IMG/VR virus record: IMGVR_UViG_3300029319_000402 | Coordinates: 1-26,949 of that record | Direction: 5' to 3' (one strand) | DNA: 26,949 bases | DNA from: a virus | In this document: in pieces, positions 136 to 23,379 of the stretch | Numbering within the stretch: the stretch's first letter is position 1 | Layout: every line of letters begins with the position of its first letter | Notes under the pieces: generated by a model | The model's input: the letters and a program-made list of their open reading frames with translations, nothing else | What the model was told of the DNA's origin: nothing | The model's database searches: none | Position numbers and translations under genes: made by a program

Positions 136-1020
136 CTATAAGTCTAATTTTATTTTAAATCTCATATTTATTTTATCACTTTTTCTAATTGGTCTTGGTA
201 ATTTAGCTTGAATAATAGGTTCTTCATAATTACCCCTATCATATAAATTAATTGTAGTTATGTATGGTTGCCAATCACTACTTGTAAACTCAGAAGCTAA
301 TAAATATGATGATAACTCTAATGGTTTACCACTTCCACTAACAGGACTCCTTAAAGTATAATTTGTTGAAAAATTATAATCTTGTGGTAATAAATTTAAA
401 GAATACTCATAAGTTGTTATCGAATTAAATGAATCAAATTTTAAACTATAGTTTGTACCTAAATCTGAATAATTTACACTACCACTCCAAGAACCCGTTT
501 CTGTAATTACCACTAACCCTTTATCATAAAATATATTACCAACATAATTATCAGATGATGATAACGCTCCAGCACTTTGTGAGTGATGTGCATTTGTTGA
601 ATATAAATTACCTTTACCATCATCTATAATTATTGGATTATTATTACTATTGTCGGTGACATCTACTTCTGTAAGTTTAAAACTTTTTTCTGTTATTTTT
701 TCACCATAATATTGAGATGGAATCGGAATTATTGAACTACTTGGATATCCATGATATTTAGTTAAAAATTGTTTACCTGTTTTTTTCTTTACAGAAATAT
801 TACTCGATGGTGTTCCAAATTTATGTTCGTTTAAATATTGAGGAGAGCCACTTGTATAGAATAAAACATTTAATGAGTTCCAATAACTTTCACTTATAGA
901 ACCAGAAACTATTTTTATTGATTTTATACCAATTGAAGAAGTAGTAAGGTTTTGTGTATAATTTACAACATTACTTTCAATTATGGTTGATGAATTATCA
1001 ATCTCTCCGAATACATACAT
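136..1020 (-). CDS. Virion structural protein, paralogue of the 365-residue neighbour
   Basis: A 294-residue protein rich in Ser, Asn and Tyr with scattered SGS motifs, no signal peptide and no membrane segment. Its C-terminal part (about 160-294) matches that of the 365-residue protein encoded just upstream. Both have an (I/F)FY..G(I/L) strand, then an NFS...T stretch, then ITT.NLYD/ITSVQLYND, and both end in a basic I.VKL-type strand (KIKLDL here). Such a shared end suggests a common attachment fold, with different N-terminal parts. By position and style it is a tail or baseplate-surface protein; I do not know its precise role. Its ATG follows the previous stop by 11 bases. The Shine-Dalgarno (GATGGG) is weak, so translation may depend on coupling. 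Confidence 0.6.
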   Translation of the reverse strand: MYVFGEIDNSSTIIESNVVNYTQNLTTSSIGIKSIKIVSGSISESYWNSLNVLFYTSGSPQYLNEHKFGTPSSNISVKKKTGKQFLTKYHGYPSSSIIPIPSQYYGEKITEKSFKLTEVDVTDNSNNNPIIIDDGKGNLYSTNAHHSQSAGALSSSDNYVGNIFYDKGLVVITETGSWSGSVNYSDLGTNYSLKFDSFNSITTYEYSLNLLPQDYNFSTNYTLRSPVSGSGKPLELSSYLLASEFTSSDWQPYITTINLYDRGNYEEPIIQAKLPRPIRKSDKINMRFKIKLDL

Positions 1021-1031
1021 AGCAACCCATC

Positions 1032-2129
1032 TTAATAAGTTAGTTTAACTTTAATTGTAGCTTCTGAACTAAAGTTTTTCTTCAATGGTGTTGATAAATT
1101 ACCAACAGCAACCATATCACCAGCATCATTGTATAATTGAACTGATGTAATAAATGTATTTGGATTACCTTTCATTTTTTCTTGTCTTAATTCATTTAAA
1201 GAACCTGAAACAAATGTTGGGTTATTTGAAAAATTCATATGTCCAGCTCTTGTTCTACAAAAATATTGAGCACTCACTTGGTCTTCTTCATCTCTAAATG
1301 TTAATGAGGCTGGTGACTCCAATAAACAATTTATTAATCTTAAAGCTTGTTTTGTATTACCTGTAGTTGTTTTTGCAAAACCAAATCCTTTTTGAGAACC
1401 CGAATCAAATATTACAGTATTATTAACTCCAGCATCAATTCTACCTGGCATTGAAGCTGATAACTCATGTCCACTTAATATTAAGATTCCCATACTTGGA
1501 TAAAAGAAACCAAATGATTGAGATGTAGCTGCATTGTGTGCGGTTCCAGCAGAACCACTAACAATGTTATACCTATCACCAGCTGGTGTAGCTGTTGGTT
1601 TTTGTGTTTTACTATCATCTGTTAATTTTAAAACCACACCACTTAAATCACCAGCAGAACCACTAAATGCTACAGTCCAAGTTCCTTTGTTAATTCTATC
1701 TTTCATATTAGAACGTCTTGCGTTCATAATAAATATTTCAGTATCTTTTGTACTTAACGCACCACCATGTGAACCATTTTGAGATATTTTAAATCCACCA
1801 GTAACTTCTAAAGGAGCTAAAAGCATACTAGCATATTGTTTATAAATCGCTTCTGTAGGAGATTTTATAGTACCACCTGAAGTTTGTCCACCATATCCAT
1901 TCGTACTACCAAATGCAACATTGAACTCTTCTGTAGTTAATGTTGAACTATTTGAAATTCCAAAAAAATATGTTTCATTTGTATCTGATAAAGATGATGA
2001 TTTAATACTAGCAGCTGCTAAAGTAGCACTACCATTTGAAAAATAAGGTGATGTTACCTTTTCAGTATGAGTTATTTTATCCATCCCCTCAGCTGTATTT
2101 ATTGGTATTCTTGTTCCTGCTATTGGCAT
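1032..2129 (-). CDS. Virion structural protein
   Basis: A 365-residue protein rich in Gly, Ser, Thr and Ala with many SGS motifs, typical of beta-rich virion proteins. Residues 205-225 contain a GFFYPSMGILIL strand. Residues 285-365 contain CRTRAGHMNFSNNPTF, ITSVQLYNDAG and a terminal IKVKLTY. The same sequence of elements recurs in the 294-residue protein encoded next, so the two are paralogous over at least the C-terminal 130-160 residues. The N-terminus is unlike the neighbour's. No enzyme motif is visible. The ATG has a strong AGGAG site and follows the preceding gene by 17 bases. It is the second gene of the left operon. A tail or baseplate-surface component is the best guess (inference from context). 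Confidence 0.65.
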   Translation of the reverse strand: MPIAGTRIPINTAEGMDKITHTEKVTSPYFSNGSATLAAASIKSSSLSDTNETYFFGISNSSTLTTEEFNVAFGSTNGYGGQTSGGTIKSPTEAIYKQYASMLLAPLEVTGGFKISQNGSHGGALSTKDTEIFIMNARRSNMKDRINKGTWTVAFSGSAGDLSGVVLKLTDDSKTQKPTATPAGDRYNIVSGSAGTAHNAATSQSFGFFYPSMGILILSGHELSASMPGRIDAGVNNTVIFDSGSQKGFGFAKTTTGNTKQALRLINCLLESPASLTFRDEEDQVSAQYFCRTRAGHMNFSNNPTFVSGSLNELRQEKMKGNPNTFITSVQLYNDAGDMVAVGNLSTPLKKNFSSEATIKVKLTY

Positions 2130-2146
2130 TTTATTCTCCTAATTTA

Positions 2147-2857
2147 TTATGAACCTATATTCGTAGTTCTTGTTGGCCTTGGATTTGTTTTTATATTGTT
2201 TGTTACTGTTATTGAAGCATAAGCACCAAACTCTCTATGTACAATATAAATATCTGTTGACTTACCTATTTCAGTTTGGAATATTGGGTCTATTTTAAAT
2301 GAACCATTTGCCGAAGTTGGTAAATCATACATTTTAGCATTTGCAATTTCTTCCTCTGCTAAAAATTCACCCGCAGTTCCACTTATTCCACCCGGTACTT
2401 CTGTTGGTCCATTTCTTAAATCTACTAATTCTGGTTTTTGAACTACTATATAGTATCCCAAATTTTGAGTCGGACTACCACCAATTAAAGTGATAGCTAT
2501 CTTACCTTTAGTAGCTTGTTCACCATCATTGAATGTAATTGATGTTCCACCCTCAGTGTCTGTACCACCTATGGATAATGAAGGTAGTGATTTTGTACCT
2601 TTAGGTAAAGTAATCAATCTATTTCTTAAATTATATTCAGCGTGAACACTAGCTTCTAATTGTGGTAAGTTTTCAATAGCTTCTCCATAAAACGCAGAAC
2701 CACTTGGATGGTCTGAATTGAAAAGTGTATAGTCAACACCCGAATCCGATAAAGTAAAAGAAGTAATATTTAAATTCTTACCATCTTTAAGAATTTCTCT
2801 TCCTTTTTTCGTTAATACTGCATCAACCGTAATTGATGAATTGTCTAAATATCCCAT
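2147..2857 (-). CDS. Putative virion protein, first gene of left late operon
   Basis: A 236-residue protein that begins MGYLDNSSITVDAVLTKKGR. A short basic helix (TKKGREILKDGKN) is followed by beta-rich sequence, a YTLFNSDHPSGSAFYGEAIE segment near residue 43, and a Pro/Thr-rich tail (NPRPTRTTNIGS). I recall similar N-termini in structural proteins of marine myoviruses but cannot name the family, so the function is unassigned. It is the first gene after a 66-base gap holding the 19-base candidate promoter, with AGGAG 8 bases before the ATG. Downstream genes encode paralogous virion proteins, which makes a tail or baseplate role likely. There is no signal peptide, membrane helix or catalytic motif. 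Confidence 0.6.
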   Translation of the reverse strand: MGYLDNSSITVDAVLTKKGREILKDGKNLNITSFTLSDSGVDYTLFNSDHPSGSAFYGEAIENLPQLEASVHAEYNLRNRLITLPKGTKSLPSLSIGGTDTEGGTSITFNDGEQATKGKIAITLIGGSPTQNLGYYIVVQKPELVDLRNGPTEVPGGISGTAGEFLAEEEIANAKMYDLPTSANGSFKIDPIFQTEIGKSTDIYIVHREFGAYASITVTNNIKTNPRPTRTTNIGS

Positions 2858-2923: not shown

Positions 2924-5900
2924 TTAATATGTTACATTGTCTGAATTATCTATTTTTGGATTACCAGATACTACTCTGATTTCGTTTTCACCGCCAGTTA
3001 CTTTAACTCTATAAAACGAAGCACTTGAATAATCCTCTTGTTTAACATTTAAAAATCCTACACCCTTTGAACCCGGAGGTGGATTTTGTGCACCTTTATA
3101 CATTTGTTCTTTAAATGGATAACTAAATTTTGTAATGTGATTTGATGGTAAAGTAATTGTTCCATCTGAAGATGTTGTAAAGTATCGTGTCTTACCCATC
3201 ATTCTACCATTTAAAATACTTGAACCAGTCGTAAAATTTTTACTATCATAAGTAACATTTTTGTGAATTTCTTTTGTAACATACATTCTATTAAAAAATC
3301 TACTAGCATTTGAAAAATCAGTATTACTAAATGAACCAGTGTGAAATAAATCACCACCTATTCTTGTTAGTGGTGATACATTTGAACCTGAATAATGCTC
3401 CATATCACCAATTGTATAAAAATAAAATCTTGTATCTATGTGTCCAACATTATAATCACCACTTGAACCAGTACCACCTGCAAAGTTTATAAAGTGTGTA
3501 TTATCTGAACCAGTACCCCAATTTTTATGTATGTCTTCAAAGGACTGATTAGATTGTGTTGAATAGTGAATCACACCATCAAAACTATTTACAATCTGAG
3601 AACCAGTTGTTGATGGTGGTATAGGTATTGATGCTGAAAATGGATTAACAATTGAAGCAGAATAACCTGCTGGTTGTAAAACAGTTGGATGAACGTATCC
3701 GCTATTGGTTACATACGCATTACCTAAACTTATAGATGTAGTAATTGGTAATTCAAGTTTAGAACCACTAGTTGTTGGTGCACCTTGTATTGTCGTTTCT
3801 TTTATAGAATTAAAAATAGAAGATGGTATAACTGTTTGAGACACAACATCTATTTCACCATTTCCACTATTTGGATTTGTTTCAACTGAACTTAATTTAT
3901 GTTCATATTTTTGTTTTTCTAAAATAGTTGGTTTAATTTCAATTGCGATGTTCGCATCTTCATCACTAAATGTACTACCCGCAGGTACTAATGATTGTAA
4001 TGCATTTACCACGTTTTCACTAAACATATTTTCATTAGCTCTTATAAATTTATTAACATTAATCTCAATCGGATTACAATCAAAAAATTCTTTTCTAAAT
4101 GTATCTAATTCACTATAAGATGATGAATAATATTTTGTAGGGTCTCCATATTTATTTTCTAAACTAAATCCATCTATTTGATTTAAAATAAAATCATTAA
4201 CAAAATCTGTAGTAGATTTGTTTATTTCTAATTTTTTAGATACCGTTACGTTTGGTTTTTTACCTTTTACATTTGTCATAGATTCAACAGCAGACTTGTT
4301 TGCATTTAAATCACTTAAAATTGTTTTGTTTGGATTTATGATTATATTTGTATTAGTTGGTTGTGCTACATTATCTTTTAATGTAAACTTTACAATATCA
4401 ATTATGTCAAGTCCATATACAAAAGAGCTGGTAAAAAATGTGCCTGGTTTTGTAAGTGAATAATCTGTTTTTAAATTACATTTTGGAGCAGAATCTATAA
4501 TTTTTAATTCTTGTACTGAAGAAGAAACTGATGCATTTGAATAATTTTCATTTAATTTAAAATGATAAACCAATTCTTTATCTGTAGAATCTATTGAATT
4601 ACCAACTGATGAAAATTTATTAAACACATGTTGTCTAAATCTTGATGCACTTAAAGATGTTGTCCACGCTTTTATTTCAGCTATAGAACCACTAAATGTT
4701 TCACCTACAAATAAATTGGAAGATGATAAGTAATGTCTTGAACCACTCGATTGCCAGTTTTTATTTGCATTAAAAGTTTTACCAGGAGTATCAGTTCCTC
4801 CAGTTAAACCACCACTTATTGACATTGATGTAAAATTATAAGACTTAATCTGTTCAGGTTTTAAAACATTCTGTAAAGCTGTATGTAATCTATATTCTAC
4901 AGTTCCTCTACCAGTTGAACTTCCTGTCATTCTTTGTATCATCACATTCCACAATTGTCCATCAGTCATTTCATCATAAGCCAGAGACATTGAAATACCA
5001 TTTGTATTTATTGGTAATGAACCTGTTAAAGAATTATTTAGTCTAAATTGAAATGATGAACTTAATCCACTACCACCAGGTATTAACCTCAAGTCCCATA
5101 AACTTTCTGCACCACTACCACTTGATTTTAAAATGGTTTGTGTTTGTGTTGTCGTTCTGTGTTTATAAACAAATTCAATTGTATTAATATCAGCACTATC
5201 CATCCACCAATCAAGATTTAAAATTCTACTTGGTTGGTGTAAATGTAAATATCTATAAAATTTAGCTTGACTTGTTACGAATGAAAAACTACCACTTTGA
5301 TTAAGTAAATTTAAATCAACTGATGGAAATTGTGTTAAATCAGTGGTTTCTATCTGAACATCAGGTAATTCATCATTGACAGTAGGTATAACAGGTCCGG
5401 AATCTGGTTCACCAATATTGAACTGACTTGTGCCACCAAATTCTTTAAATTTAATAACATCAGGTGGATAACCATATGTGTTTAATAAAGCTCTAATGGA
5501 ATTATTTGTTCCTTTTGTTTTATAGATGTATAATAAATTATTTAAAGTTTTTCTCCAAGTATTGTTTTTAATATCATCAATTGTTGTAACACCCGTTAAA
5601 TATTGTCCCAATGAATCATTTAAACTACCACTAAAAGGATTTATAGCCTCCCAACCAATGTTTGATAACAACATTGGTAGTGTATTATCTGGTGGTGAAT
5701 CTGTTTTTTCATATCCTCTTTTATGAATTGTTCCCATTGAATCAATATGATTTCTAATTAAATCATATTGTTCACCTTGTAGATTTAAAAAATCTTTCAT
5801 ATCTTGATAATCAGAACTATCTTGGATATAAAGAGGTAAATTGTTTTCAAACGAATGTATATTGTTGGTATCAAATGCAGAAGCTGAATCCAACGTACCA

Positions 5901-8900
5901 TTATACCAATCATTCCATGCATCTGAACTTGTATGATAAATATTGTCAAATGGTAAGACATCTGATGGATTATTTAATGATACTTTTACATCTGTTATTT
6001 TTGATTCAACAATACCTGGAGGTGTCAAATATAATTGTTTAACTTCATTAGGAGTTATAGTTCTATCATAAACTCTTGGATATTGTAAAAATCCACTAAA
6101 GAATGCATGATTACCACCAACGATTTCATTACCACCAACAGTTAATGGTTCGTTTGGATAGTTAGATGCAGTGAAGTCTGAACCCGTTATACTAAAATTG
6201 TCTCCAAGAGTTGGTCCTGATGCAACATTGTTTCCATCAACATATAGTAATAATCCTGTTGCAGAACCACTTTGATAAGTAAATACAATATGATGCCAAT
6301 CTAATAAGTCATCATCAAAATCGTGAGTTACAGTTTCTGATGTAGCACCTCCACCTGGTGTAGTATTACCTCTAACACCCGCTATAATTCTATTAGGATT
6401 TTGAGCATAAGTTATACCATAAGAATTTGTTGTTAAACCCCTACCAAAAATATTTGTAGAACCACTTCCGCCATGCTGTGTTGTATCGGCAGAACCTGTA
6501 TCTGGATGAAACCTTTTAGCCCATATGGATAATGAAAAGTTATCATCTCTACTAAAGTTAAATTTGTCATCATCAAAATCTAATTCATGTCTACTTTCAC
6601 TAACGAATTGAATACTTTTACCATATTGTCTACCATGCACTTCAACACCATCAGCTATGGTTACTGAACTAAATGGAGAACTTCCACCAGCTATAGGACC
6701 TGGATTATCAAGTGTACCAGAACCCTCAGCAGAAGCACTTAACATCATATCATCAGTAACAAGTGCACCTGATGTAAATGTATCAAAGTTTAAAAATCCT
6801 TGTAAACTTGATGTCAATGTGTTACGATAACTTACAGGAAATAAATCACCCGATGGTTTAACTGAACCTAAAAATGGAATACCAATTGATTCAGAATTTA
6901 CTGTGACATAACTTGCATATTTACCACTTGAATCTAATATTTGATTTGAACCAGTTTTAATACTACCACTTAATATTTCAACATTGGATGAATTTATATT
7001 AAAATCACTTTCCTCTAATAATCCAGCTAAATCATTACCAACAGCAGGTGTTGGAATCCAATAAGAATGAGAGGTATGAAAAATATACCTTTGATATTTA
7101 CTTGGATTTCTTGGTGGATTTTGAACTTCTTGTAACATTTTAGAACCAGAAGTAAATTTAACATTTTGTCCATAATTTTCTGTCTGAAGATTATCAAATC
7201 TCAATCTACCATCAGAGTGTCCTAAACTACCACTATCGGCTTTCATTAAAAATGATAAATAAATTGAACTACTGTAATTAAAAAATGGTTTTTCGTGAGC
7301 TAAATACTTTCTTGTAAATAAAGATACAGATGTATCTGAACCCATATTTTGAGATGAATGATGATAGGCTGTATTAAATCCATCAGCGTTAGGTATCTCA
7401 CCAACATAGTCATCAAATTCATTATAATCATTTTGAACAGGAATTGTATCTGCATAATTTTTACCCAAACCAGGAGCTGATGCAGTTGATTCACTTTGTC
7501 CATCATAATATAAAAATCTTTCATAAGGTGTAAATGTTCTTATTTCATCATTTATCTTTTTAAATAATTCTTTTCTATGTTCTGTTAAAAATACAGAGGA
7601 TGTTTGTATACTTTGTCCTGTACTGGATAAAGATTTTGAAATATCGGAATAATATCCTTGAATAGTTTCAATTTTTGTTTTAAAGTTTTCTAATTTCTTT
7701 TTAGCAGAACCAAAAAATGTATGGTTTTCAAACTGAGTATAATCTGTATTTAAATTTGGATATTCATAACTACTTGAAATTAAATTATCTAATGTTACGT
7801 CACCAATTGAACCACTCAACTCATCATAATTTTGAAAATCAAAATCTTGTCCATCTGAATTTAAATAGTTTTGTTTTGATTGTGGAGCTAATCCATCACC
7901 AAAATATTGTTCTGCAATGTCTGAAAAATAATAAGTGTCTTCAAATTGTGTTGTTAAAACTTCTTTTTCAATTGAAACAAAACTTAAATTACCAACAGAT
8001 AAAGGAAGTGGCTCATAAAGTTTTAAAATTAAAGATTGGTCTTCTTTACCAGTTGATACATCATCAAATAAATAATTCATTATTGGAATGTGGTCACCAG
8101 TTCCAATGTTTAGTAAATGTTTAAATTGATATTTATAATTTGGATTTGGTATTTGATTACCAGTACCATCATCTATTGTTTCTGACTCATTGTTGTGAAA
8201 CTGACTTATAATGTAATTAATTATCGGTGAATCTTTTTCAAGTTTTGAATCCTTTAATTTTAAACGAATTTCTGTCCTTGATGTTGATATTTGTCTTACA
8301 ATGAAATCATAAACAAGTCCTGTTTCTTCTGTAACTCCTGGTAAATAAAAATCTGAAAATGGCCTTGGTTGAGGTGTTGTGCCACCACTACCTGGTTCTG
8401 ATTCTGAAAGTATTGATGGGGGACAAGTTCCATTACCATCATTTAGTCCAAGTTGACAATCTGCGTTTAAATCAGATTTCATAGTTAACATTTCTTGACT
8501 TATATCTGTTCTACCAACAAGGGCCCAGTTTGTTATGTCAAGAGTATTAAACAACCCATCACTTGGTCCTCCAATATCAAACTCTTCAAAATATTGTGGA
8601 TATGGTAAAGTTGATAAATCTACATTTTCTACATTTTCAGGATTTAATTGGTTTAAAAAATCAATCTTAAATCTGTAACCACCTTGAGGTAAATCTACAC
8701 TATTGAATATTTCATTTGGTTTAATGTATATATCATTACCATTTTGATATATTTTAAAATCATTATAAACACCACCAACTAATCTACTTTGAACATTACC
8801 ATTATCACTTAATCCTTCAAATGGTGTAATGTTTATATAAACACCAACATTTGATGGTGATGCATAAAATACACCCACAGCATTATCAAGTGCTTCAGTT

Positions 8901-9019
8901 GGAAAAACTGTTAATCTAATATAGTCGGTTGAGTTAAAATTAGTATCAAAAACACCATCTTGTTGGTTTGCAACTAATTGAAAATCTCCAGCAGATAAAT
9001 CATATTCAAATTGTGGCAT
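2924..9019 (-). CDS. Giant baseplate protein with gpI/gp7-like core and two LamG-like domains
   Basis: A 2031-residue protein, the largest in the window. I see a beta-rich N-terminal domain (1-135) and a helical stretch near 435-500. A jelly-roll-like segment (575-650) is followed by a LamG/concanavalin-like domain (about 798-998: FSLSIWAKRF, DWHHIVFTY, LLLYVDGN, ITPNEVKQLY). Next comes a segment resembling P2 gpI (about 1060-1195: DNTLPMLLSNIGW, then YKTKGTNNSIRALLNTYG). A second LamG-like domain (1240-1465) and a Ser/Thr-rich beta region follow. The P2 gpI family is the wedge partner of the gp6/gpJ protein, equivalent to T4 gp7. This could therefore be the gp7 counterpart, enlarged by sugar-binding-type modules; that identity is inference. 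The ATG is preceded by GGAG inside the previous gene's last codons. Confidence 0.7.
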   Translation of the reverse strand: MPQFEYDLSAGDFQLVANQQDGVFDTNFNSTDYIRLTVFPTEALDNAVGVFYASPSNVGVYINITPFEGLSDNGNVQSRLVGGVYNDFKIYQNGNDIYIKPNEIFNSVDLPQGGYRFKIDFLNQLNPENVENVDLSTLPYPQYFEEFDIGGPSDGLFNTLDITNWALVGRTDISQEMLTMKSDLNADCQLGLNDGNGTCPPSILSESEPGSGGTTPQPRPFSDFYLPGVTEETGLVYDFIVRQISTSRTEIRLKLKDSKLEKDSPIINYIISQFHNNESETIDDGTGNQIPNPNYKYQFKHLLNIGTGDHIPIMNYLFDDVSTGKEDQSLILKLYEPLPLSVGNLSFVSIEKEVLTTQFEDTYYFSDIAEQYFGDGLAPQSKQNYLNSDGQDFDFQNYDELSGSIGDVTLDNLISSSYEYPNLNTDYTQFENHTFFGSAKKKLENFKTKIETIQGYYSDISKSLSSTGQSIQTSSVFLTEHRKELFKKINDEIRTFTPYERFLYYDGQSESTASAPGLGKNYADTIPVQNDYNEFDDYVGEIPNADGFNTAYHHSSQNMGSDTSVSLFTRKYLAHEKPFFNYSSSIYLSFLMKADSGSLGHSDGRLRFDNLQTENYGQNVKFTSGSKMLQEVQNPPRNPSKYQRYIFHTSHSYWIPTPAVGNDLAGLLEESDFNINSSNVEILSGSIKTGSNQILDSSGKYASYVTVNSESIGIPFLGSVKPSGDLFPVSYRNTLTSSLQGFLNFDTFTSGALVTDDMMLSASAEGSGTLDNPGPIAGGSSPFSSVTIADGVEVHGRQYGKSIQFVSESRHELDFDDDKFNFSRDDNFSLSIWAKRFHPDTGSADTTQHGGSGSTNIFGRGLTTNSYGITYAQNPNRIIAGVRGNTTPGGGATSETVTHDFDDDLLDWHHIVFTYQSGSATGLLLYVDGNNVASGPTLGDNFSITGSDFTASNYPNEPLTVGGNEIVGGNHAFFSGFLQYPRVYDRTITPNEVKQLYLTPPGIVESKITDVKVSLNNPSDVLPFDNIYHTSSDAWNDWYNGTLDSASAFDTNNIHSFENNLPLYIQDSSDYQDMKDFLNLQGEQYDLIRNHIDSMGTIHKRGYEKTDSPPDNTLPMLLSNIGWEAINPFSGSLNDSLGQYLTGVTTIDDIKNNTWRKTLNNLLYIYKTKGTNNSIRALLNTYGYPPDVIKFKEFGGTSQFNIGEPDSGPVIPTVNDELPDVQIETTDLTQFPSVDLNLLNQSGSFSFVTSQAKFYRYLHLHQPSRILNLDWWMDSADINTIEFVYKHRTTTQTQTILKSSGSGAESLWDLRLIPGGSGLSSSFQFRLNNSLTGSLPINTNGISMSLAYDEMTDGQLWNVMIQRMTGSSTGRGTVEYRLHTALQNVLKPEQIKSYNFTSMSISGGLTGGTDTPGKTFNANKNWQSSGSRHYLSSSNLFVGETFSGSIAEIKAWTTSLSASRFRQHVFNKFSSVGNSIDSTDKELVYHFKLNENYSNASVSSSVQELKIIDSAPKCNLKTDYSLTKPGTFFTSSFVYGLDIIDIVKFTLKDNVAQPTNTNIIINPNKTILSDLNANKSAVESMTNVKGKKPNVTVSKKLEINKSTTDFVNDFILNQIDGFSLENKYGDPTKYYSSSYSELDTFRKEFFDCNPIEINVNKFIRANENMFSENVVNALQSLVPAGSTFSDEDANIAIEIKPTILEKQKYEHKLSSVETNPNSGNGEIDVVSQTVIPSSIFNSIKETTIQGAPTTSGSKLELPITTSISLGNAYVTNSGYVHPTVLQPAGYSASIVNPFSASIPIPPSTTGSQIVNSFDGVIHYSTQSNQSFEDIHKNWGTGSDNTHFINFAGGTGSSGDYNVGHIDTRFYFYTIGDMEHYSGSNVSPLTRIGGDLFHTGSFSNTDFSNASRFFNRMYVTKEIHKNVTYDSKNFTTGSSILNGRMMGKTRYFTTSSDGTITLPSNHITKFSYPFKEQMYKGAQNPPPGSKGVGFLNVKQEDYSSASFYRVKVTGGENEIRVVSGNPKIDNSDNVTY

Positions 9020-9021
9020 TT

Positions 9022-12000
9022 TTATAACGCTCCGTTTCTATTATTAGTCTTTTTAGGTATTTTTATAAATGAATCTCTTGTCATTGGTTTATTTTTTCGA
9101 TTCTTTTTAATTCTATAATCTCCAATTAAAAAACCTTTATTTCCATTACCATTAGAATCATCAATTACATTCGTAGATAAATCACCTAAATTAAATTCTA
9201 TTTTACAATTTTGTTTTAAATCAACATCTAAATTGTCATCTATAAATATCTGTCCGACAGAACTTTCCTCTGGAAAAGTTGTAGTTGGTGTTAACCCATC
9301 CCAATAATTAAAATCATCATAAAAATTTATTAGTGATGAATCTGCTCTTGTTAAACTTATATCTTTCCACTTTGTTTTGTCATATAATTGTCCATTTAAA
9401 AATTGAATTTCATGTCGTGATGGTGTATTAAAATATTGTACTGCGGGGAATAAATGAACCCAAACTACACACTCTTCACCAACAACGCAATTTGCTTGTT
9501 CCCAAAAGTCAGGATGTTGTTGTTGTTGATAATCATTACCATGATCTCCATAAATCCACATTGTCATTTGACTTCCTGGACTTACTGATGTAATTGTTGT
9601 TCCATCATATGGACTTTGTGTTTGTTTATCCCAATCATCAGCCTGTATACTAATACCTTTGTTTTTAAATCTTATACCAATTCCCTTTAATGAAGAGTTT
9701 GTTTCTCCACCCACATCTTCTTCAGTTCCCATATAAGTAAATTTTAATTGATACCATTGTGTTAAATCATTAACATCTAATAAATCATAACAACTTTGAT
9801 AATCATTACAATCTTTAAGTATATGGTCATAAAGTCCTGTTATGGTTGTTGAAAATTCTTCACCATCTCCTCCATTAGAAGCCCCTTGTAAAACTGTTGC
9901 AGTATATTCATTCATCATTGAATCATATTCTAAAATCATATCATCATCATCATAATCAAAAATATCAGAAAGATTTGATTCTGTATCTAAAGTAGGTGTT
10001 GGAAAATACTGTGGATTATTTGATAAAACTTTTAACAATGTATTGATATCATAACTTTTGTTAAAATATCTTATTTGTTCCAAATCCATTTTTTCTATAT
10101 TTTTTCCAAGTTCATTATTTTCTTTAGCATTAATTAAAAATGTTTCATCAATTATATCTTGATTTCCTACTTTACCACCACTTAATGTATCTTGAACACT
10201 TTTTAAGTATTTTGAATCTTGACTAATACCACCAATCACAGGATTTGTATTTGGCCAAGGTATTGTGGTGTAATCATTACCACCCAATTCATTAAAGTCA
10301 GGAAATTCAGTAGATGGTAAATCTAAGAAGATTCTTGTAGTGACAAGTTTCCATCTAAGTGGTTCAACATAATCTATAATTTCATCAAAAAAATTTAAAT
10401 CATTTTGATACCACGGCTTTTCACTCACACTAACCATAATACTTTTGATAGTTTTTATACCTGAAGTATTGTATGTATTTCTTAATTCTCTTGTTCTCAA
10501 ATGTTCACCACCATCACCAAATGTTCTAGGGAGGTGGGTACTAAAATTAAGTTCATGATTATTATTTATATATTTTGGTATGTATAAATTTTCATTTCTT
10601 TTATCTAATAATTGTTGTTTTGTTCTTGGCCAATCGGCTAAAACATCGTTTATTGTTTTAAATTTATCATCACTATCATTCCAATCTATTACAAAACAAA
10701 GATAGTCTACACCATCAGGTCCCATATTATTTACTGTTACTTGTTCACCAGTAATTATATCGTTGTAAGTTGCTTGAAGACTGTCAGTTGGATTATTTGG
10801 ATTAACAAACTCATCATTATAACTATCCCATTTAGTTTTTTGAATTAATTCAATACTTTCACTTAAATTTACACCTTCATTTAAAATTTGTTGATTCCAA
10901 TAAATTGTTTGCACGCCTGAAATTTCAAACGTAAAAGTTCCACCATTATTGAAAGAAGGAGTATTGATTAATTCAGTACCATCATCCAATGTCCATTGTT
11001 CCGTAGTCATATCACGAACAAGTGTTACACCAGCGTCTTCACCCGTAATGCTAACAATTTCCAATGGTATACTATCATAAGTTATTTCATAATTATCACC
11101 AGTCCAAATAATTGTATTAACATCAGGAATACTACCATCTGAATTATTTGGGTCTATTAAAATTTCTTCACCATTTGTATAAGTTAACTCTGCTTGTGTT
11201 ATATCATATAAAGTTAAACCATCACGATATGGTAATGGGTGAAGACATATATTGAAATTTAATTCAACACTATTTGGTGCTGAAACTAAAAGTCTATCAC
11301 CATCACTTTGATAATAAGCTTGTAAATCAGTATCTGCGAATAATCTTACAATAGGTGTTGGTGCGAAGTCTGAAAATTTACGAAAATATTTTTGTCCTAA
11401 GTATTCAGGATCATTATGTGTATATTGAAGAAGAGCATCTCTAATTTGACTCGCAGGAAACATATTTAACATCACATGATCTATTTCAGCTTCTAACTCA
11501 TTTGTTAAAATTGGATACAATGGATATTGAATGTCATTAATTATATTTTCATATTTGGGTGAAGGATTATATCCTTGTTCTAAATTAGCACCACCACTAG
11601 TGTCTATTATCATTCTAAATTCTTTACCACCAAAAGCTGCTGTTCTGTCTCCACTTGAATATCTTGCATTTGTTGGCTCATCCCATTCCAATATCGTTAC
11701 TTTACCTGAACCATCTTCATTAAATAATTCCATTGGGTCAAATGCATATAAATTTATTGTTTGATTTCTACTTCTATCCCACGGCCATATATCTTGGTCA
11801 CCATCCATATGAATACCAAAGAAAACTAAATTTGCAGCTCCATTTTCTTGAAATAAATTTGTTTGGTCATCTTCATATCCTGTAGTACCATCAACATTTC
11901 CATCATCACCAAACTCTACACCAACCTTTCTTAAAGATCGTATGGGATTAAAAGTACTACGTTTATTACCCCACTCCATATCATATTTAGCAGAATTAGT

Positions 12001-12582
12001 ATTTCCAACCGGCCCATAATTCAATGTATCAAAGTTTTCTACAATGGAAAGATTTCTAATACCTTGAAAGTCACCTGGTGCGTCACCTTCACCATAATTG
12101 GGGCCATTTTGACTATAGAACCAAGCAGCTCCATTGGAATCGTCTTCATCAGTATCACCCTTGCCTTCCATTCCATTCTTTAAAGTAGTATAACCTTTTA
12201 AACTTCCATTTGTGTTATATGGGTTAAAAAATTCTTGGGAAAATATAAAGAAACGAAAATAAACATCATTAATATCACTATTAACACCTCTGTTAACGAT
12301 ATTTAAACTTTGTATTTTAATTGAAGTGTTACCTAAATATTGAAGTTCATCACCAGCGCCTGGTCGTTGATATGATGATTCAACTTTTGATTCCAATATA
12401 GCTTCATTGATTGAATCTCCAACAAAAGATGAATATAAATCTTTGTCTATAAATTTATCAGCATTAATTGGAACACTATCTGAATCTAAATAAACATTAC
12501 TATTATTATCTGACAAATAAGTGTATATACCTAAATCATCTTGAAATGGTTTATTTCTTATCATTCTTTTTTTAATAGCCAC
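9022..12582 (-). CDS. Giant baseplate/tail protein with PKD-like C-terminal half
   Basis: A 1186-residue acidic protein, rich in Asp, Asn and Tyr. The N-terminal 600 residues are unrecognised. From about 615 it runs parallel to the C-terminal part of the 1738-residue neighbour. A degenerate PKD-like domain (VIDWNDSDDK, later TYNTSGIKTIK) is followed by NPVIGGISQDSKYLKS (780-795) and QIRYFNKS (836-843). It ends with NGNKGFLIGDYR and a basic tail closing in NRNGAL. An extra block at about 855-1085, with four Cys and possibly jelly-roll-like, is absent from the neighbour. The start is GTG at 12582, sharing a base with the TAG stop upstream, with GGAG 7 bases before it. An ATG six codons later is the alternative but lacks that spacing. 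No catalytic motif is seen; a baseplate periphery role is inferred. Confidence 0.65.
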   Translation of the reverse strand: MAIKKRMIRNKPFQDDLGIYTYLSDNNSNVYLDSDSVPINADKFIDKDLYSSFVGDSINEAILESKVESSYQRPGAGDELQYLGNTSIKIQSLNIVNRGVNSDINDVYFRFFIFSQEFFNPYNTNGSLKGYTTLKNGMEGKGDTDEDDSNGAAWFYSQNGPNYGEGDAPGDFQGIRNLSIVENFDTLNYGPVGNTNSAKYDMEWGNKRSTFNPIRSLRKVGVEFGDDGNVDGTTGYEDDQTNLFQENGAANLVFFGIHMDGDQDIWPWDRSRNQTINLYAFDPMELFNEDGSGKVTILEWDEPTNARYSSGDRTAAFGGKEFRMIIDTSGGANLEQGYNPSPKYENIINDIQYPLYPILTNELEAEIDHVMLNMFPASQIRDALLQYTHNDPEYLGQKYFRKFSDFAPTPIVRLFADTDLQAYYQSDGDRLLVSAPNSVELNFNICLHPLPYRDGLTLYDITQAELTYTNGEEILIDPNNSDGSIPDVNTIIWTGDNYEITYDSIPLEIVSITGEDAGVTLVRDMTTEQWTLDDGTELINTPSFNNGGTFTFEISGVQTIYWNQQILNEGVNLSESIELIQKTKWDSYNDEFVNPNNPTDSLQATYNDIITGEQVTVNNMGPDGVDYLCFVIDWNDSDDKFKTINDVLADWPRTKQQLLDKRNENLYIPKYINNNHELNFSTHLPRTFGDGGEHLRTRELRNTYNTSGIKTIKSIMVSVSEKPWYQNDLNFFDEIIDYVEPLRWKLVTTRIFLDLPSTEFPDFNELGGNDYTTIPWPNTNPVIGGISQDSKYLKSVQDTLSGGKVGNQDIIDETFLINAKENNELGKNIEKMDLEQIRYFNKSYDINTLLKVLSNNPQYFPTPTLDTESNLSDIFDYDDDDMILEYDSMMNEYTATVLQGASNGGDGEEFSTTITGLYDHILKDCNDYQSCYDLLDVNDLTQWYQLKFTYMGTEEDVGGETNSSLKGIGIRFKNKGISIQADDWDKQTQSPYDGTTITSVSPGSQMTMWIYGDHGNDYQQQQHPDFWEQANCVVGEECVVWVHLFPAVQYFNTPSRHEIQFLNGQLYDKTKWKDISLTRADSSLINFYDDFNYWDGLTPTTTFPEESSVGQIFIDDNLDVDLKQNCKIEFNLGDLSTNVIDDSNGNGNKGFLIGDYRIKKNRKNKPMTRDSFIKIPKKTNNRNGAL

Positions 12583-15500
12583 TAAAATGCTCCGTTATTT
12601 TTAGATGTTTTAAATAAACTTGTTGTTCTTGTTTTTTTAGGTTCAAGAGTTTCTTTATCAAAATTTGGACGATAATCATTATATCCAAAACCAAAGTTAT
12701 TATTACCACTATAATCATTAAAAACATTTGATTCTAAACTTTCATTTCCTATAGATATAAGTAGATTAGAATCAGTAAAATTTTCATTAGTTATTGGACC
12801 TTCACTTGGAAATGGTATTTTAAAAACATTATTAATTCTTGGATAACCACTAATTACATTTCCATCTTCATCCGTTTCAATGTTTACAAATGTACCATCT
12901 GATTGATATTTTGGAAGTACTGGATAATAATTATTTATCGTAAAATTTTGTTCAGAGTAAATGTCTATAGTTTTTGCCTCATTTTCAGACTCCAAATCAA
13001 TACCCTCTCTATTAAATATAGAATAGTCTTTTGGAATAATATTTTTCCAATATCTATCATTATTAGGATTACCAATAATTTCTAAATCCTCTTCTTTAAA
13101 TCCAAACATTTCTGATAATTGTATTGGTTTATTAAAATAACGTATATTTGTTAAGTCTGTATTTCCTATTGAATTACCAAGTTCTTCTGAAAATGTTTGT
13201 ATACCATTATAAATTAAATTATTATCGGAATCATATCTTTGTTCTTTAAATCCATTTAGTAAATTAAAATTAGAACTAAATGATGAATTTATTTTATCTA
13301 AGGCCAATTCTGTTTTTAATTGATAACCTTTATTTTGAAATAACCCATTAAATACTTTTTGTTCCACACCATCAGTGTCTCTAACAATACCAAGTTGTCT
13401 TGATGTAGATTTATAATAAATACTTTCTTTAGAATACCCACCAATTATAGGTAATGTATTTTTATATGGTATGAATGAAAAACCATCAGAACCAAAATAT
13501 TTAAAATCTTCATCCAATCCTTCGTTTATATTTATTCTCAAAGTAAATCTTTTATTGTGTATTACACCCAAAGGTTCATAGTTTTTGTCAGGTTTCATTC
13601 TTAACATTGTACCTTTGATTTCAAAAATACCACCTTTTTCATAAGTGTGAAATACAGATATATTTTCACCCAATAACTTTGGTTCACTTATAAATTCAGG
13701 TGGTGAACCATCACCCCAATCAACATCATATAAATAAAACATTCCTTTTCTAAAATCATTATAAATAATAGATTTTTGTTCTTGAAATGGGTTATTTGTA
13801 TAATATATTGGATAAAAATAAAATTGTGCTTCTAAAGGAGCAGTGGTATCTTTATATTTTTCAGGCTCTAAATTTTTATCATAATACTTTGTTAAATCTG
13901 CAGTACCATATTCATCTGGTCCTTTTTTCATTCGCACATCAACATCGGGTTGAAACTCATATGATTCTCTAATTTCAAAATCATCAAGATAAACTGTTCC
14001 ATTGAATCCAGTATTAGCACCAATTCCACTTGATTGAATGATAAACCACATATCTTGTAGATTGTTTGTATCTTCATTATTAATATAATTTTCAGATAAA
14101 TTAAACACATAACTAAAATTTTCCCAAACATTCAATTTAGTATTTGAAAATCTATTCATTGCACCAAAGTTTTTTTGTTCACTACTACCAAATGAACTAA
14201 TGGAATTGTGACTACCAATTGATTGATTGTATTGTTCATTGTAATTGGTTGAAAGATAATTTATTTCGTTTTGAACTGTTTGAAATAAACCCTTACTATC
14301 AACAACTTTAAACTCAAATGTAAATCTAAATTCTAATCTATCTATTGAACTACTTGATAATTTAAACCTAACAGGAATTTTATATCCATTAGTATTTCCA
14401 TTATATTCTCCATGAAAGCTTTCATTAGGACTATCAAATACAGCTGTTGATGTTGGATTATCATTGTATTGTCTAGGTAATGAAACTCTACCTGTCCATA
14501 CTGGATTATTTCCATTATCTTCAAAAGAATCATCTACTGAACTATCCGTGTCCCAATCTTGATTACCGGTTGCAAATGGAATATTACACATACTAAATTG
14601 TTCAACGTATTGACTACCAGCACCAAGATCTCCATATAATTCTATTTTAACAATATCTATAGAGTATAAATAAGAATCTGGATTTGCGTCAAGATATGCT
14701 AATCTTTCAGCAACCTCATCATTACCACCACTTAATGTATTTATAAAAAGTTGCCAATGTGGTAAATGAACAGTGAAATATTGAGCAGTAGTGCCAATAT
14801 TTTGCGAGTGGTCTTCACCATCATATTTAAAATCATATTGATTATATACCTGAGCTCCACCATCATCATCATAAAGAAGTATGTTAGGTAATGGATTGAA
14901 CTGTCCAGTTTCATAATATGTATCTTTTCCATTAGGAGTGGTATCCTCATCAGGATAAATTTCATATGAATAATCTGTTTCAAATTCTTCTAATTCAAAT
15001 GTACCTGTACCTTCTGGATTATTTTTTGTAATTCCAACTTCAACCACTGGATTTTCATAATTTAAAACTTCTTCACTAGTATCATCATCACTTTCAACGA
15101 CTTCATTTGACTCCGTTGTTTTCATCCAAAAACTAACCTTTAAAGAACTGTATGGATTCAATTCAGTGTCTTGGTCTGAAAAATATATTTGTTGATATTG
15201 ATTCAATGCTCTGTATTGATTTTCATCTCCTAAAGATAAAACTTGAAGAGCTGTACTTAGTGGTTGGTCTAAATTACTTATAGCTGGAGTTAAGTAACTA
15301 ACACATTGCCAGTATGGACCCGTTATGCCATCAGAGGTATTATTTTCTAAAGGGTGTGTTTCATATGCTTTAACACAATATCTATGTGTTCCTTGACACA
15401 TATCAGAATCTTTAATATATGTTTGATTTGAAAAATCAATAGTTGTACATGGAGCAGTCAGACTATTACCAAACCAAACATCAATATATTTTAATGGGTT

Positions 15501-19518: not shown

Positions 19519-20625
19519 CTATTTCCTCTTAACTATAAATTCAAAATCATCATCAAATGTTTGTTCTTGTCCATCATCATATTTTAATTTTAATAAAATT
19601 TTATAAACTCTATCAGGATAGAAACCATCTAAGTATTGAATGAAATAATTAGAATTACTATCACAACTCATAGATGTAAATTGACTAAATGGAACGATAA
19701 ACTCATCAGTAGCCACATCTTTAATTGCATATGAACCACTACCTTCAGTTATAAATGAACCAGTTACAGTCTGAACTGATGTATTGAAAGTTTTTTGAAT
19801 GTATCTTTTTCTAGCACCAACTCTAAACTTAACTCGTTCACCCACCTTGTATTCATCTCTCAAACCTTTCATATATAAAAAGTTATCAGCTAACCCACTC
19901 ATTGTTAACTCGGTTAGTGAGCCTGTATTTGAACCACTACAAGCTATATGGTCGTCCCAACGGACTTCTATTCTTGGTGAGAAAATTGTATGTGTATTTC
20001 TTGAGAAAAATTTTAAATGGCCAAATGTTTGTGAGTCTGTTTCTTGACTACCACTAAAACGAACTAACATTCCATTGTTTGTAATCTGTCCTTTTAGCCA
20101 CATATTCATCATATTGGTTATTTCAACATTAACATCGGGTGATTGCTCACTAAATGTCTGAACAGAATGACTTACAGTTGTGATTGTACCACCAGCAGAA
20201 GTCCAAGCTGTAGCTGAACCTCCTCTTGGATACCTTCTATTTTCCCAACTACATCCATTTATATTTTTTGGATTATCACTAAACTTACCAGTACCCTCAA
20301 CCCAAGCCTCACTTAGTGGTTGAACGGCTAACTTGTAATTAGTACTTAATTCCGCATTACCTTCAGCTTCATACAATCTTAAAAAGTATTTCGCGTCAGA
20401 AGATATAGTTCCATCGGATACTGATTTAGACAATTCAGTAAACTCATCTCCACTAAATTGAACCAATGCTCTCGTTGGATAATCAAATGAACTATTGTAA
20501 AATTCTTTTTTAACTTCAAGTATTTGGTCTCTTCCAAAGTTTTGGTCTCTAAAAGACTCACCTGTTATTGTATTTGAACCACTTGAAATCCAAGTGTCTT
20601 TTGATGGAAAAATAAAATGATGCAT
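19519..20625 (-). CDS. DNRLRE-like virion protein
   Basis: A 368-residue protein. Residues 1-225 have the pattern of DNRLRE/CBM96-type jelly rolls. These are FPSKDTWISSGS, then QNFGRDQILEVKK with TRALVQF, then NVEITNMMNMWLKG followed by NNGMLVRFSGSQE. In cellular proteins such domains sit on secreted, often carbohydrate-related, proteins. Residues 245-368 look like a separate Ig-like beta domain (KGLRDEYKVGERVKFRVGAR, then YKILLKLKYDDG). The start overlaps the gp6 stop (TAATG) and GGGAG precedes it. Its place directly after gp6 suggests a baseplate wedge or peripheral component, where T4 has gp7. A structural role is well supported; a specific one is not. Confidence 0.6.
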   Translation of the reverse strand: MHHFIFPSKDTWISSGSNTITGESFRDQNFGRDQILEVKKEFYNSSFDYPTRALVQFSGDEFTELSKSVSDGTISSDAKYFLRLYEAEGNAELSTNYKLAVQPLSEAWVEGTGKFSDNPKNINGCSWENRRYPRGGSATAWTSAGGTITTVSHSVQTFSEQSPDVNVEITNMMNMWLKGQITNNGMLVRFSGSQETDSQTFGHLKFFSRNTHTIFSPRIEVRWDDHIACSGSNTGSLTELTMSGLADNFLYMKGLRDEYKVGERVKFRVGARKRYIQKTFNTSVQTVTGSFITEGSGSYAIKDVATDEFIVPFSQFTSMSCDSNSNYFIQYLDGFYPDRVYKILLKLKYDDGQEQTFDDDFEFIVKRK

Positions 20626-22874
20626 TATCTAACTCTCCCTTGTATGTTTTGATTTGGATTCTTTAATTCAAAAACCGTTGGTGTTGATACTAATGGTGGA
20701 ATAACAATTGTTTTGTCATCAGAAAGAGCACCTTGAATTGAAAAATCATATTTATAACCATAACCAGTAGGTTGTGAAATTTCAAAAGTTTCTCCATCAG
20801 TTTGATAAGAATATGTATACAGTGGTGGATTAAATTCTTCACCCTCACCACTAGGTGAACCAGAAATATCATCATAGAAATAATCTCTATCTTGAGTTAT
20901 TGTAACATGTCCAATTGAACGAACACCTTCAACACCCATTAGTTCATATTCTAATTGACTTTTATAAATTGGTTGATTGAATTGCATTTTTTCAATTCTA
21001 AAATAATCTTTTATTTTTTGAATACAATTTAATTTTACTTGTTGTTTATCAGCATATTTTTCAGCTATGACATCAAATATTACACCAAAGTTGACAACAT
21101 ATCCATCGTTAAATGTTATTATATCTGTTAACATTTTAAAATTTTGTAAATAGTTATTTAAATTAGTTAATAAGGTTTGTGGAACTGAGTCATTAGTTCC
21201 CAATGATGTTGCATGAGGATTACCAATTAAATTCTTTTGTCCATTGTATGTTAAACAATAAATATTTATTGTTGTCAAACCTGGATTTTCTATAAATTGA
21301 TTTATAAAATTTTGTAACACAGTTCCCCCAGCTGATATATCATTTAAAGTACCATTTGCCGAGTTTAAATTACCAATAACGTCATCCAAAGTATTTGTTG
21401 TTGTATCAGGATTATCTATGATGTCTTGTAATACACTAATTGTAGAAGTTAAATTACTATTAGCAAATTCAGCTAATTGATTAATGGATGCAGCAGCTAT
21501 ATCAGCTCCACCCACTTGTGGTTGATAAGATGCATCTCGTGTAACATATACTTTCGCTATACCACCATACTGAGAATCCATATTTAAAATACGAGCTTCA
21601 TAATCTTCTTTTGTAACACATCTATTTTGTGTTGCAAAAAATGCTTTAGCTTTTTCTTTTATTTCAATTATTTCCTCTTTGTTTCTACCACCAATAGCTG
21701 GTGAGTTATTTATAACACTTGTCAATTGAGCATTTGTATTTCCATTATCAGCAGTCAATGTTGGTGTGGTTATAATATTACCAGCTGGTACGTTTGATTG
21801 TGAACCACCTCCAACACGATAGGTGATTGTTAAAGTTGTATTGTTTGGTGTTTCACCAAGTGTTGAATAAAAATCACCTAACAATGGGTCTATACCATCA
21901 TTTAAATCACTTGTTTGACCAGGAATGGTAATTCCTAATTGTCCGACATCAATATAATCCTCAGTTATGGTTTGTCCGTTTTTCAAAACACCATTTCCAA
22001 ATACTAATGATGTAGTGTTATCAACATTAGTTTCACGGGTAAATCTTTTTGTTGTTTTTCTATAAGTTAAAGAAAAAGGAACTGCTGTCGATGAAGGTAG
22101 TCCACCCTCTGTCGCATAAGCAGAATTTCTATCAATATCATCAGTATAATGTGTTTTTATTGGTATTTGGTCTTGTGCTAAAAAATCTACTTCATACCAA
22201 TTATTCCCGTTTGAATCCACACAAGAAACAATGTCAACAACATTAGTATCAGGTATTGTAAGTTTTCTAAATTTTTCAGGAGCTCCAACTTGAAATGATA
22301 TTGTTTTTTCTTTAGCACTTACAGCTGTCACATTCCTTGATAAAGTATATGATGTTGCTAGTCCAGCGTCATCTTCTGTTCCAATAACAGCTGTGTCGTT
22401 TGATTGTGTTATTTGAAAATCTATATGTTCAAGAGTTGTAAACACAATGTTTGAATTTGAAATGGATTCTATTTCAATACCTGGATTAAATATACCACCA
22501 TTACTATAATCTATTTTAGACCTATCTGTTGAAGCAGTTACCTCCGATGTAAAGGTTAATGTAACGTATGATGGAATAATTGGTTTGACTTTATAACCAA
22601 ACATTTTAGCCATATTAATTACATTTCTTCTTTCTGATGCTAATGGTAATAACATCTCTTTATATTGTTGGTCGATATAAAACGATAACACATCACCAAC
22701 ATATGCGTTCATTTCTAATAACATCATACCAGGTGATGTTTCATTAAAATCTTGATAGGTATCAGGAAAATAAGATTTAGCATAATTCATTAAAGATTCT
22801 TTTAAACTTGAAAAATCTTTATTTAAATAATTTACATTTGATTCTTTAAAATTTTCATTACCATATGTTGGCAT
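20625..22874 (-). CDS. 6: Baseplate wedge protein gp6 (baseplate J family)
   Basis: A 749-residue homologue of T4 gp6 (660 residues) and P2 gpJ. gp6 forms the inner ring of the wedge around the hub and holds the baseplate together during the hexagon-to-star change. The N-terminus is typical: NYLNKDFSSLKESLMNYAKSYFPD, SPGMMLLEMNAYVGDVLSFYID, then the ERRNVINMAKMFGYKVKP helix. The core has TYRVGGGSQSNVPAG (351-365) and ATQNRCVTKEDYEARIL (414-430). The C-terminal wedge has IYKSQLEYELMGVEGVRSI (636-654). A helical, Asn/Thr-rich stretch at about 452-531 interrupts the core and looks like an insertion. GGAG precedes the ATG by 7 bases, and gp25 ends 13 bases upstream. Confidence 0.93.
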   Translation of the reverse strand: MPTYGNENFKESNVNYLNKDFSSLKESLMNYAKSYFPDTYQDFNETSPGMMLLEMNAYVGDVLSFYIDQQYKEMLLPLASERRNVINMAKMFGYKVKPIIPSYVTLTFTSEVTASTDRSKIDYSNGGIFNPGIEIESISNSNIVFTTLEHIDFQITQSNDTAVIGTEDDAGLATSYTLSRNVTAVSAKEKTISFQVGAPEKFRKLTIPDTNVVDIVSCVDSNGNNWYEVDFLAQDQIPIKTHYTDDIDRNSAYATEGGLPSSTAVPFSLTYRKTTKRFTRETNVDNTTSLVFGNGVLKNGQTITEDYIDVGQLGITIPGQTSDLNDGIDPLLGDFYSTLGETPNNTTLTITYRVGGGSQSNVPAGNIITTPTLTADNGNTNAQLTSVINNSPAIGGRNKEEIIEIKEKAKAFFATQNRCVTKEDYEARILNMDSQYGGIAKVYVTRDASYQPQVGGADIAAASINQLAEFANSNLTSTISVLQDIIDNPDTTTNTLDDVIGNLNSANGTLNDISAGGTVLQNFINQFIENPGLTTINIYCLTYNGQKNLIGNPHATSLGTNDSVPQTLLTNLNNYLQNFKMLTDIITFNDGYVVNFGVIFDVIAEKYADKQQVKLNCIQKIKDYFRIEKMQFNQPIYKSQLEYELMGVEGVRSIGHVTITQDRDYFYDDISGSPSGEGEEFNPPLYTYSYQTDGETFEISQPTGYGYKYDFSIQGALSDDKTIVIPPLVSTPTVFELKNPNQNIQGRVR

Positions 22875-22887
22875 TTTTTATCTCCAA

Positions 22888-23379
22888 TTAATATCCGCCA
22901 CCCCCTACTGAAGATTCTGAATTGATAGTTGAACCATCACTAAAATTTAAAGTCACAGAATCTAAGGTATTTGGGTCTTGTGTGATGTTAAATAATATTT
23001 TTACTCTTATTTCATTAGCCCCCACAACTTGATTACTTTCAATTGTGTCTATTTTAATATCTCTTACTTGTACAAAGGGTAACCATAATTCAAACCTATC
23101 TAATATAGCATCTTCTACCGCAATTAAATTTTCACTTTTAATATGTTCAAATAGTAGTCCTCTTAAATTTAAACCTAAGTTAGGTTGAAAAAGTCTTTCA
23201 CCTTCATTGGTTTGTAATAAATTTCTTATATTGTTTTTAACAGCTTCAATGGTTGTTGAAGTTGATGCAAAAAATCCATCTAATTCACTATCTCTACGAA
23301 TAGGTAAGTCTAAACCTATTTTTATTTTATCATCTTCATCTTGAAGATATGGTTTTTTTGATGTATCTCTTACAGCCAT
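22888..23379 (-). CDS. 25: Baseplate wedge protein gp25
   Basis: A 163-residue member of the gp25/TssE family (T4 gp25 has 132). gp25 clamps gp6 and gp53 in the wedge and helps start sheath assembly. The family core is plain: AVKNNIRNLLQTNEGERLFQPNLG (46-69) with the EGER motif, then NLRGLLFE (71-78) and an acidic helix. It ends with the RVRDIKI-like strand pair (VQVRDIKIDTIES, EIRVKILFNI) and a Gly-rich tail (SSVGGGGY). No lysozyme activity should be assumed despite the old name. The ATG overlaps the previous stop (TAATG), with GAGGA about 10 bases upstream. gp6 follows directly, the usual order in T4-like phages. Confidence 0.92.
   Translation of the reverse strand: MAVRDTSKKPYLQDEDDKIKIGLDLPIRRDSELDGFFASTSTTIEAVKNNIRNLLQTNEGERLFQPNLGLNLRGLLFEHIKSENLIAVEDAILDRFELWLPFVQVRDIKIDTIESNQVVGANEIRVKILFNITQDPNTLDSVTLNFSDGSTINSESSVGGGGY

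Follow-up and report, generated by a model that had tools for sequence, protein, structure and literature searches.

Does a helical segment lying between two jelly rolls in the middle of a 2031-residue protein belong to the P2 gpI/T4 gp7 family of baseplate wedge proteins, and what role does the protein carrying it play? The question is raised by the window analyzed here, the entire stretch of 26,949 bases of an IMG/VR virus record, which holds a single operon on the minus strand. The giant protein is encoded by an open reading frame at 2924..9019 (minus strand). A sequence-only reading had assigned its residues 1060-1200 (positions 5842-5420) to the gpI family. The quoted motifs were confirmed and the segment was correctly placed, but the conserved unit proved to be longer: it spans residues ~1016-1206 (5402..5974, minus strand), has an extra N-terminal helix, and thus starts about 45 residues earlier. 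This gpI/gp7-type helical core contains a KTKGT..S....L motif.

The operon contains a gp25 sheath initiator (22888..23379, minus strand; PF04965, E 2.2e-9) and a gp6-type wedge subunit (20625..22874, minus strand; phrog_219, E 3.4e-22), the expected partner of the giant protein. A 368-aa protein after gp6 (19519..20625, minus strand) shows a weak CBM96 match at its N-terminus (E 4e-5, under the cut-off) and is conserved across the T4-like phages compared. Between gp6 and the giant gene lies a 1738-aa protein (12582-17798), and directly upstream of the giant gene, within the same operon, a 1186-aa protein (9022..12582, minus strand); neither belongs to a known family. Both have only limited stretches in common with relatives, and a short segment of each recurs in the other's counterpart in L004 and L062. 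Downstream of the giant gene, three genes (236, 365, and 294 aa; 136..2857, minus strand) are syntenic in relatives. Two of them encode a C-terminal domain of ~80 aa that is common to several proteins per phage and of tail-fibre type; the corresponding fibre-type proteins lie at 136-1020 and 1032-2129 of the window. In Microcystis phage Mel-JY01 (L032:19234-28180), up to five tandem proteins carry this domain. Searches of the window for tRNAs and Rfam families gave no match.

A search with the core segment retrieved 28 close relatives from IMG/VR, and two alignment-based scans of the same collection yielded at least 574 and at least 556 confirmed stretches. The family thus comprises hundreds of unannotated IMG/VR loci, whose core has no PHROG or Pfam assignment. 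Annotated relatives are distant: phage Mel-JY01, Flavobacterium phage immuto, and a 484-kb uncultured phage. In these, the giant protein is hypothetical or unannotated, and the gene order gp25, gp6, giant gene is kept. Near-complete relatives encode gp23, the major capsid protein of T4 type, along with a tail sheath, which identifies them as T4-like myophages. Each relative record contains exactly one copy of the core, and no T4-type gp7 with full-length similarity was found in the relatives or in the giant protein itself. Given the single-copy core, the operon with gp25 and gp6, the homology to gpI/gp7 described below, and the lack of any other T4-type gp7 in the relatives, the giant protein is probably a version, enlarged to 2031 residues, of the third wedge subunit (gp7/gpI role) in a T4-like marine myophage.

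The gene layout speaks against this assignment in one respect, as gp6 and the giant gene are four genes apart in the window, whereas the corresponding genes are adjacent in T4, P2, and cyanophages. The giant protein could instead be a peripheral baseplate or fibre-anchoring protein that has borrowed a gpI-type core, with the true gp7 encoded elsewhere, for example by the 368-aa, a 570-aa, or the 1186-aa neighbour. The four intervening genes fit such an arrangement, as does the retention, in the distant relatives compared, of the gene that immediately follows gp6 and encodes the 368-aa protein. However, only one place per record matches the core or Tail_P2_I, and no T4-type gp7 turned up in the relatives, so we regard a peripheral role as unlikely.

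The assignment of the giant protein to the wedge depends on the nature of its core. In the record, PF09684 (Tail_P2_I) has exactly one candidate match, at 5450-5569 (E 0.0022 for one record, 12.3 bits). Scores amounted to 12.1-12.8 bits for the window and up to 16.4 bits among the family records tested; no single sequence reached the Pfam gathering cut-off of 20.6 bits. Of 16 family records tested, 11 were matched in the same open reading frame. When 63 diverse aligned family cores were examined, 28 matched Tail_P2_I (best E 2.7e-4), compared to 7 of 63 for the next family. Taken singly, the sequences give a weak signal, but that of the family is strong. Against a gpI profile built from eight phages, the family profile attained an hhalign score of 38.9, whereas the best of 200 column-shuffled controls scored 20.7. 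In the global alignment, 120 columns were collinear (E 6e-6), with an LP..I segment, a P..LLP.LA..GW segment, the KGT helix, and an EYGG end in this order. A search of IMG/VR with P2 gpI itself yielded proteins nearly identical to it, which were of no use for building a profile, and comparison of sequence profiles with PDB chains revealed nothing related.

For T4 gp7, the picture is less direct. The core profile scored no better than shuffles when compared directly, although the motif was aligned at YSTKG(I/T)EAS, residue 735. The link is transitive and runs through a bridge profile, constructed from the proteins encoded next to gp6 on its downstream side in three cyanophages and in Pelagibacter phage HTVC008M. 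This cyano/pelagiphage gp7 profile matched the giant-protein family with a score of 32.1 (shuffles up to 20.9) and T4 gp7 with E 1.1e-8. Of the two families named in the sequence-only reading, gpI was matched well above shuffles, while the direct match to T4 gp7 stayed at shuffle level.

The predicted structure of the core is in line with this assignment. The isolated segment was modeled as all-helical with moderate confidence (pLDDT 77, pTM 0.50). Foldseek against the PDB gave no significant match (best E 2.8); the nominal first rank, 9f4a_A0, has a length fitting gp7 but is likewise not significant. With VIA-align, by which 144 chains were realigned, the best match was 8kea_c (Z 4.8), which is gp32, a wedge protein from phage A-1(L), and further baseplate chains (Bas63, phiCD508, XM1, and phi812) appeared among the 23 rows. 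The structural support lies in this recurrence of baseplate chains, as the Z values themselves are low.

Taken together, HMM matches across the family, profile-profile scores relative to shuffles, the bridge to T4 gp7, gene context, and structure support the proposed assignment: residues ~1016-1206 form a helical domain that shares homology with the wedge core of P2 gpI and T4 gp7. If the short motif KTKGT...S had arisen by chance in a helical protein of other descent, this would account for single-sequence scores under threshold and for local profile alignments to gpI/gp7 of only 26-34 columns. It would not readily account for a score far above 200 shuffles, for the 120 collinear columns, for the same position of the motif in divergent members, or for wedge chains leading the structural list of a protein encoded in a gp25-gp6 operon, and we consider it very improbable.

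The bridge proteins also bear on the published view of gp7 in marine phages. According to PMC7029224, pelagi- and cyanomyophages lack T4 gp7 and have VrlC in its place, and concanavalin A domains are mentioned in the structural operon of these phages. In HTVC008M, gp055 (L310:33435-36485) is encoded directly after gp6 and bears the RefSeq label 'head closure Hc2'; it contains a gp7 core and matches Pfam Baseplate_wedge with E 8e-13. Contrary to the VrlC proposal, it appears to be the genuine gp7 of HTVC008M, and the comparison suggests that gp7 of pelagi- and cyanophages was not replaced by VrlC and is located beside gp6. That the giant protein is itself VrlC, the gp7 substitute proposed in PMC7029224, is hardly credible and was rejected despite a similar length (HTVC008M VrlC, 2001 aa) and a position in the baseplate operon, since no meaningful BLAST or profile match connects the two and VrlC has no KGT core, whereas the gene adjoining gp6 in HTVC008M has one.

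Around the core, the giant protein is built from conserved and variable parts. No match was found for it in PHROG, and its sole Pfam match is Laminin_G_3 (PF13385) at residues 820-994 (E 1.2e-12; 48.6 bits compared to a cut-off of 27.6). Sequence comparison delineated a conserved N-terminal scaffold (residues 239-743; 6791..8305, minus strand) with a predicted coiled coil at ~434-494, which is partly common to Mel-JY01, immuto, and LR756508. Closer to the N-terminus, another stretch (8312-8629, residues 131-236) is also variable, being absent or unaligned in several close relatives. The C-side region was covered by a second structure model of residues 1016-1726. Pfam did not detect a domain there, but residues ~1252-1544 (4388..5266, minus strand) were predicted to form a LamG/pentraxin-like jelly roll with pLDDT mostly >90; fold matches included PAPP-A (Z 16.2), pentraxin (13.5), and laminin LG (about 12). 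LamG-like jelly rolls therefore flank the core on both sides, as had been proposed, the N-side one by its Pfam match and the C-side one by predicted fold.

Beyond the C-side jelly roll, alignment of the family proteins revealed a conserved C-terminal segment (residues 1605-1716; 3872..4207, minus strand), which was found in 174 of 188 proteins compared. Its distance from the core is 62 aa in immuto and at least 300 residues in all others. By eye, the segment resembles the C-terminal half of gpI, whereas a profile comparison of the two gave no support. If it were this half, the C-side jelly roll would be an insertion within the gpI fold.

The N-side LamG resides in a slot directly before the core (residues 744-1003; 6011..6790, minus strand), as delimited by comparison with close relatives. 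Among 31 distinct scaffolds of close relatives, 12 have a cleanly empty slot, 12 carry a LamG of the window type, and seven a strongly diverged one. On a scaffold tree, at least eight changes of cassette state were counted; this number is approximate, because the tree was built by a quick method and leaves several forks open, and because the C-side jelly roll is part of the scaffold. The close sisters L013 and L015 have different cassettes. The N-side LamG is a discrete cassette that is swapped or emptied between close relatives, an observation that is new here. Cassette swapping on a conserved scaffold is the pattern expected of a putative host-contact module, and exchange in this slot may let the viruses change the surface they grip.

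In contractile tails, a wedge is made up of two chains of gp6 type and one of gp7 type, and wedge movement triggers the sheath through gp25 (PMC8894135, PMC10966104). By analogy, the core of the giant protein would pack with two gp6 copies in each of the six wedges of a baseplate, and the jelly rolls would project from the baseplate rim, where they might bind host-surface glycans or anchor fibres. Since core and jelly rolls belong to one chain, a binding event could act directly on the gp6-gp7 bundle, the trigger of sheath contraction. A more far-reaching version seems possible but doubtful to us: one polypeptide would both bind the receptor and trigger contraction, with the second jelly roll placed inside the gpI fold and the LamG cassette, which is replaceable, docked directly on the gp6-gp7 core. 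The placement of the jelly roll between two gpI halves is suggested by immuto, where these putative halves are so close together. If this version were true, host range could change through exchange of a single cassette located in the wedge and not in a fibre.

Known wedge proteins resemble the giant protein in part. P2 gpI and pyocin Tri2 (PF09684) have the KGT helix, a preceding P..LLP.LA...GW-like segment, and a following EYGG in the same order. P2 gpI, however, has 176 aa and directly follows gpJ, whereas the core studied here is in mid-chain between jelly rolls. T4 gp7 comes from a baseplate operon with gp25 and gp6 and has the related motif mentioned above; in contrast, its gene directly follows gene 6, and it has no full-length similarity to the giant protein. 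The single-copy wedge subunit gp32 of A-1(L), the best structural match, forms wedges of the composition (gp31)2-gp32, in which its N-terminal helices bundle with gp31 (PMC10966104), but it has only 191 aa and no lectin-like domains.

The giant protein had been described as far larger than T4 gp7, which is true (2031 compared to 1032 aa), but larger wedge initiators already exist. The wedge initiator of the pelagiphage HTVC008M, gp055, comprises 1016 aa, and those of the cyanophages S-RIM44 and ACG-2014f 3328 and 4225 aa. The two cyanophage genes (L349:2046-12032, 3328 codons; L350:2423-15100, 4225 codons) adjoin gp6 and encode a YHYH domain each. As in the giant protein, a gp7 core is part of a giant chain, and the YHYH module of the cyanophage proteins is putatively involved in host recognition; unlike in the giant protein, the core is at the N-terminus, the gene adjoins gp6, and the three proteins scanned contained no Pfam LamG. 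In AlgoCIS, the wedge proteins Alg11 and Alg12 are also enlarged; Alg11 has carbohydrate-binding modules, and the gp7-like part of Alg12 was termed an evolutionary hotspot (PMC8894135). AlgoCIS differs in being an eCIS, in having gp6 and gp7 parts fused in Alg12, and in the construction of cage and fibres. Cyanophages already provide examples of giant wedge proteins of gp7 type that carry a putative host-recognition module, and together with Alg11/Alg12 these chains lower the novelty of the general architecture. For LamG linked to a baseplate or wedge, nothing relevant was found in the literature.

For the T4-like phages of aquatic habitats, the wedge assignment would provide a function for a large group of giant proteins that lack annotation. 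The comparison of relatives also points to a defined slot beside the contraction core in which lectin-like modules are gained, lost, and exchanged, and a direct connection between receptor contact and baseplate triggering becomes testable.
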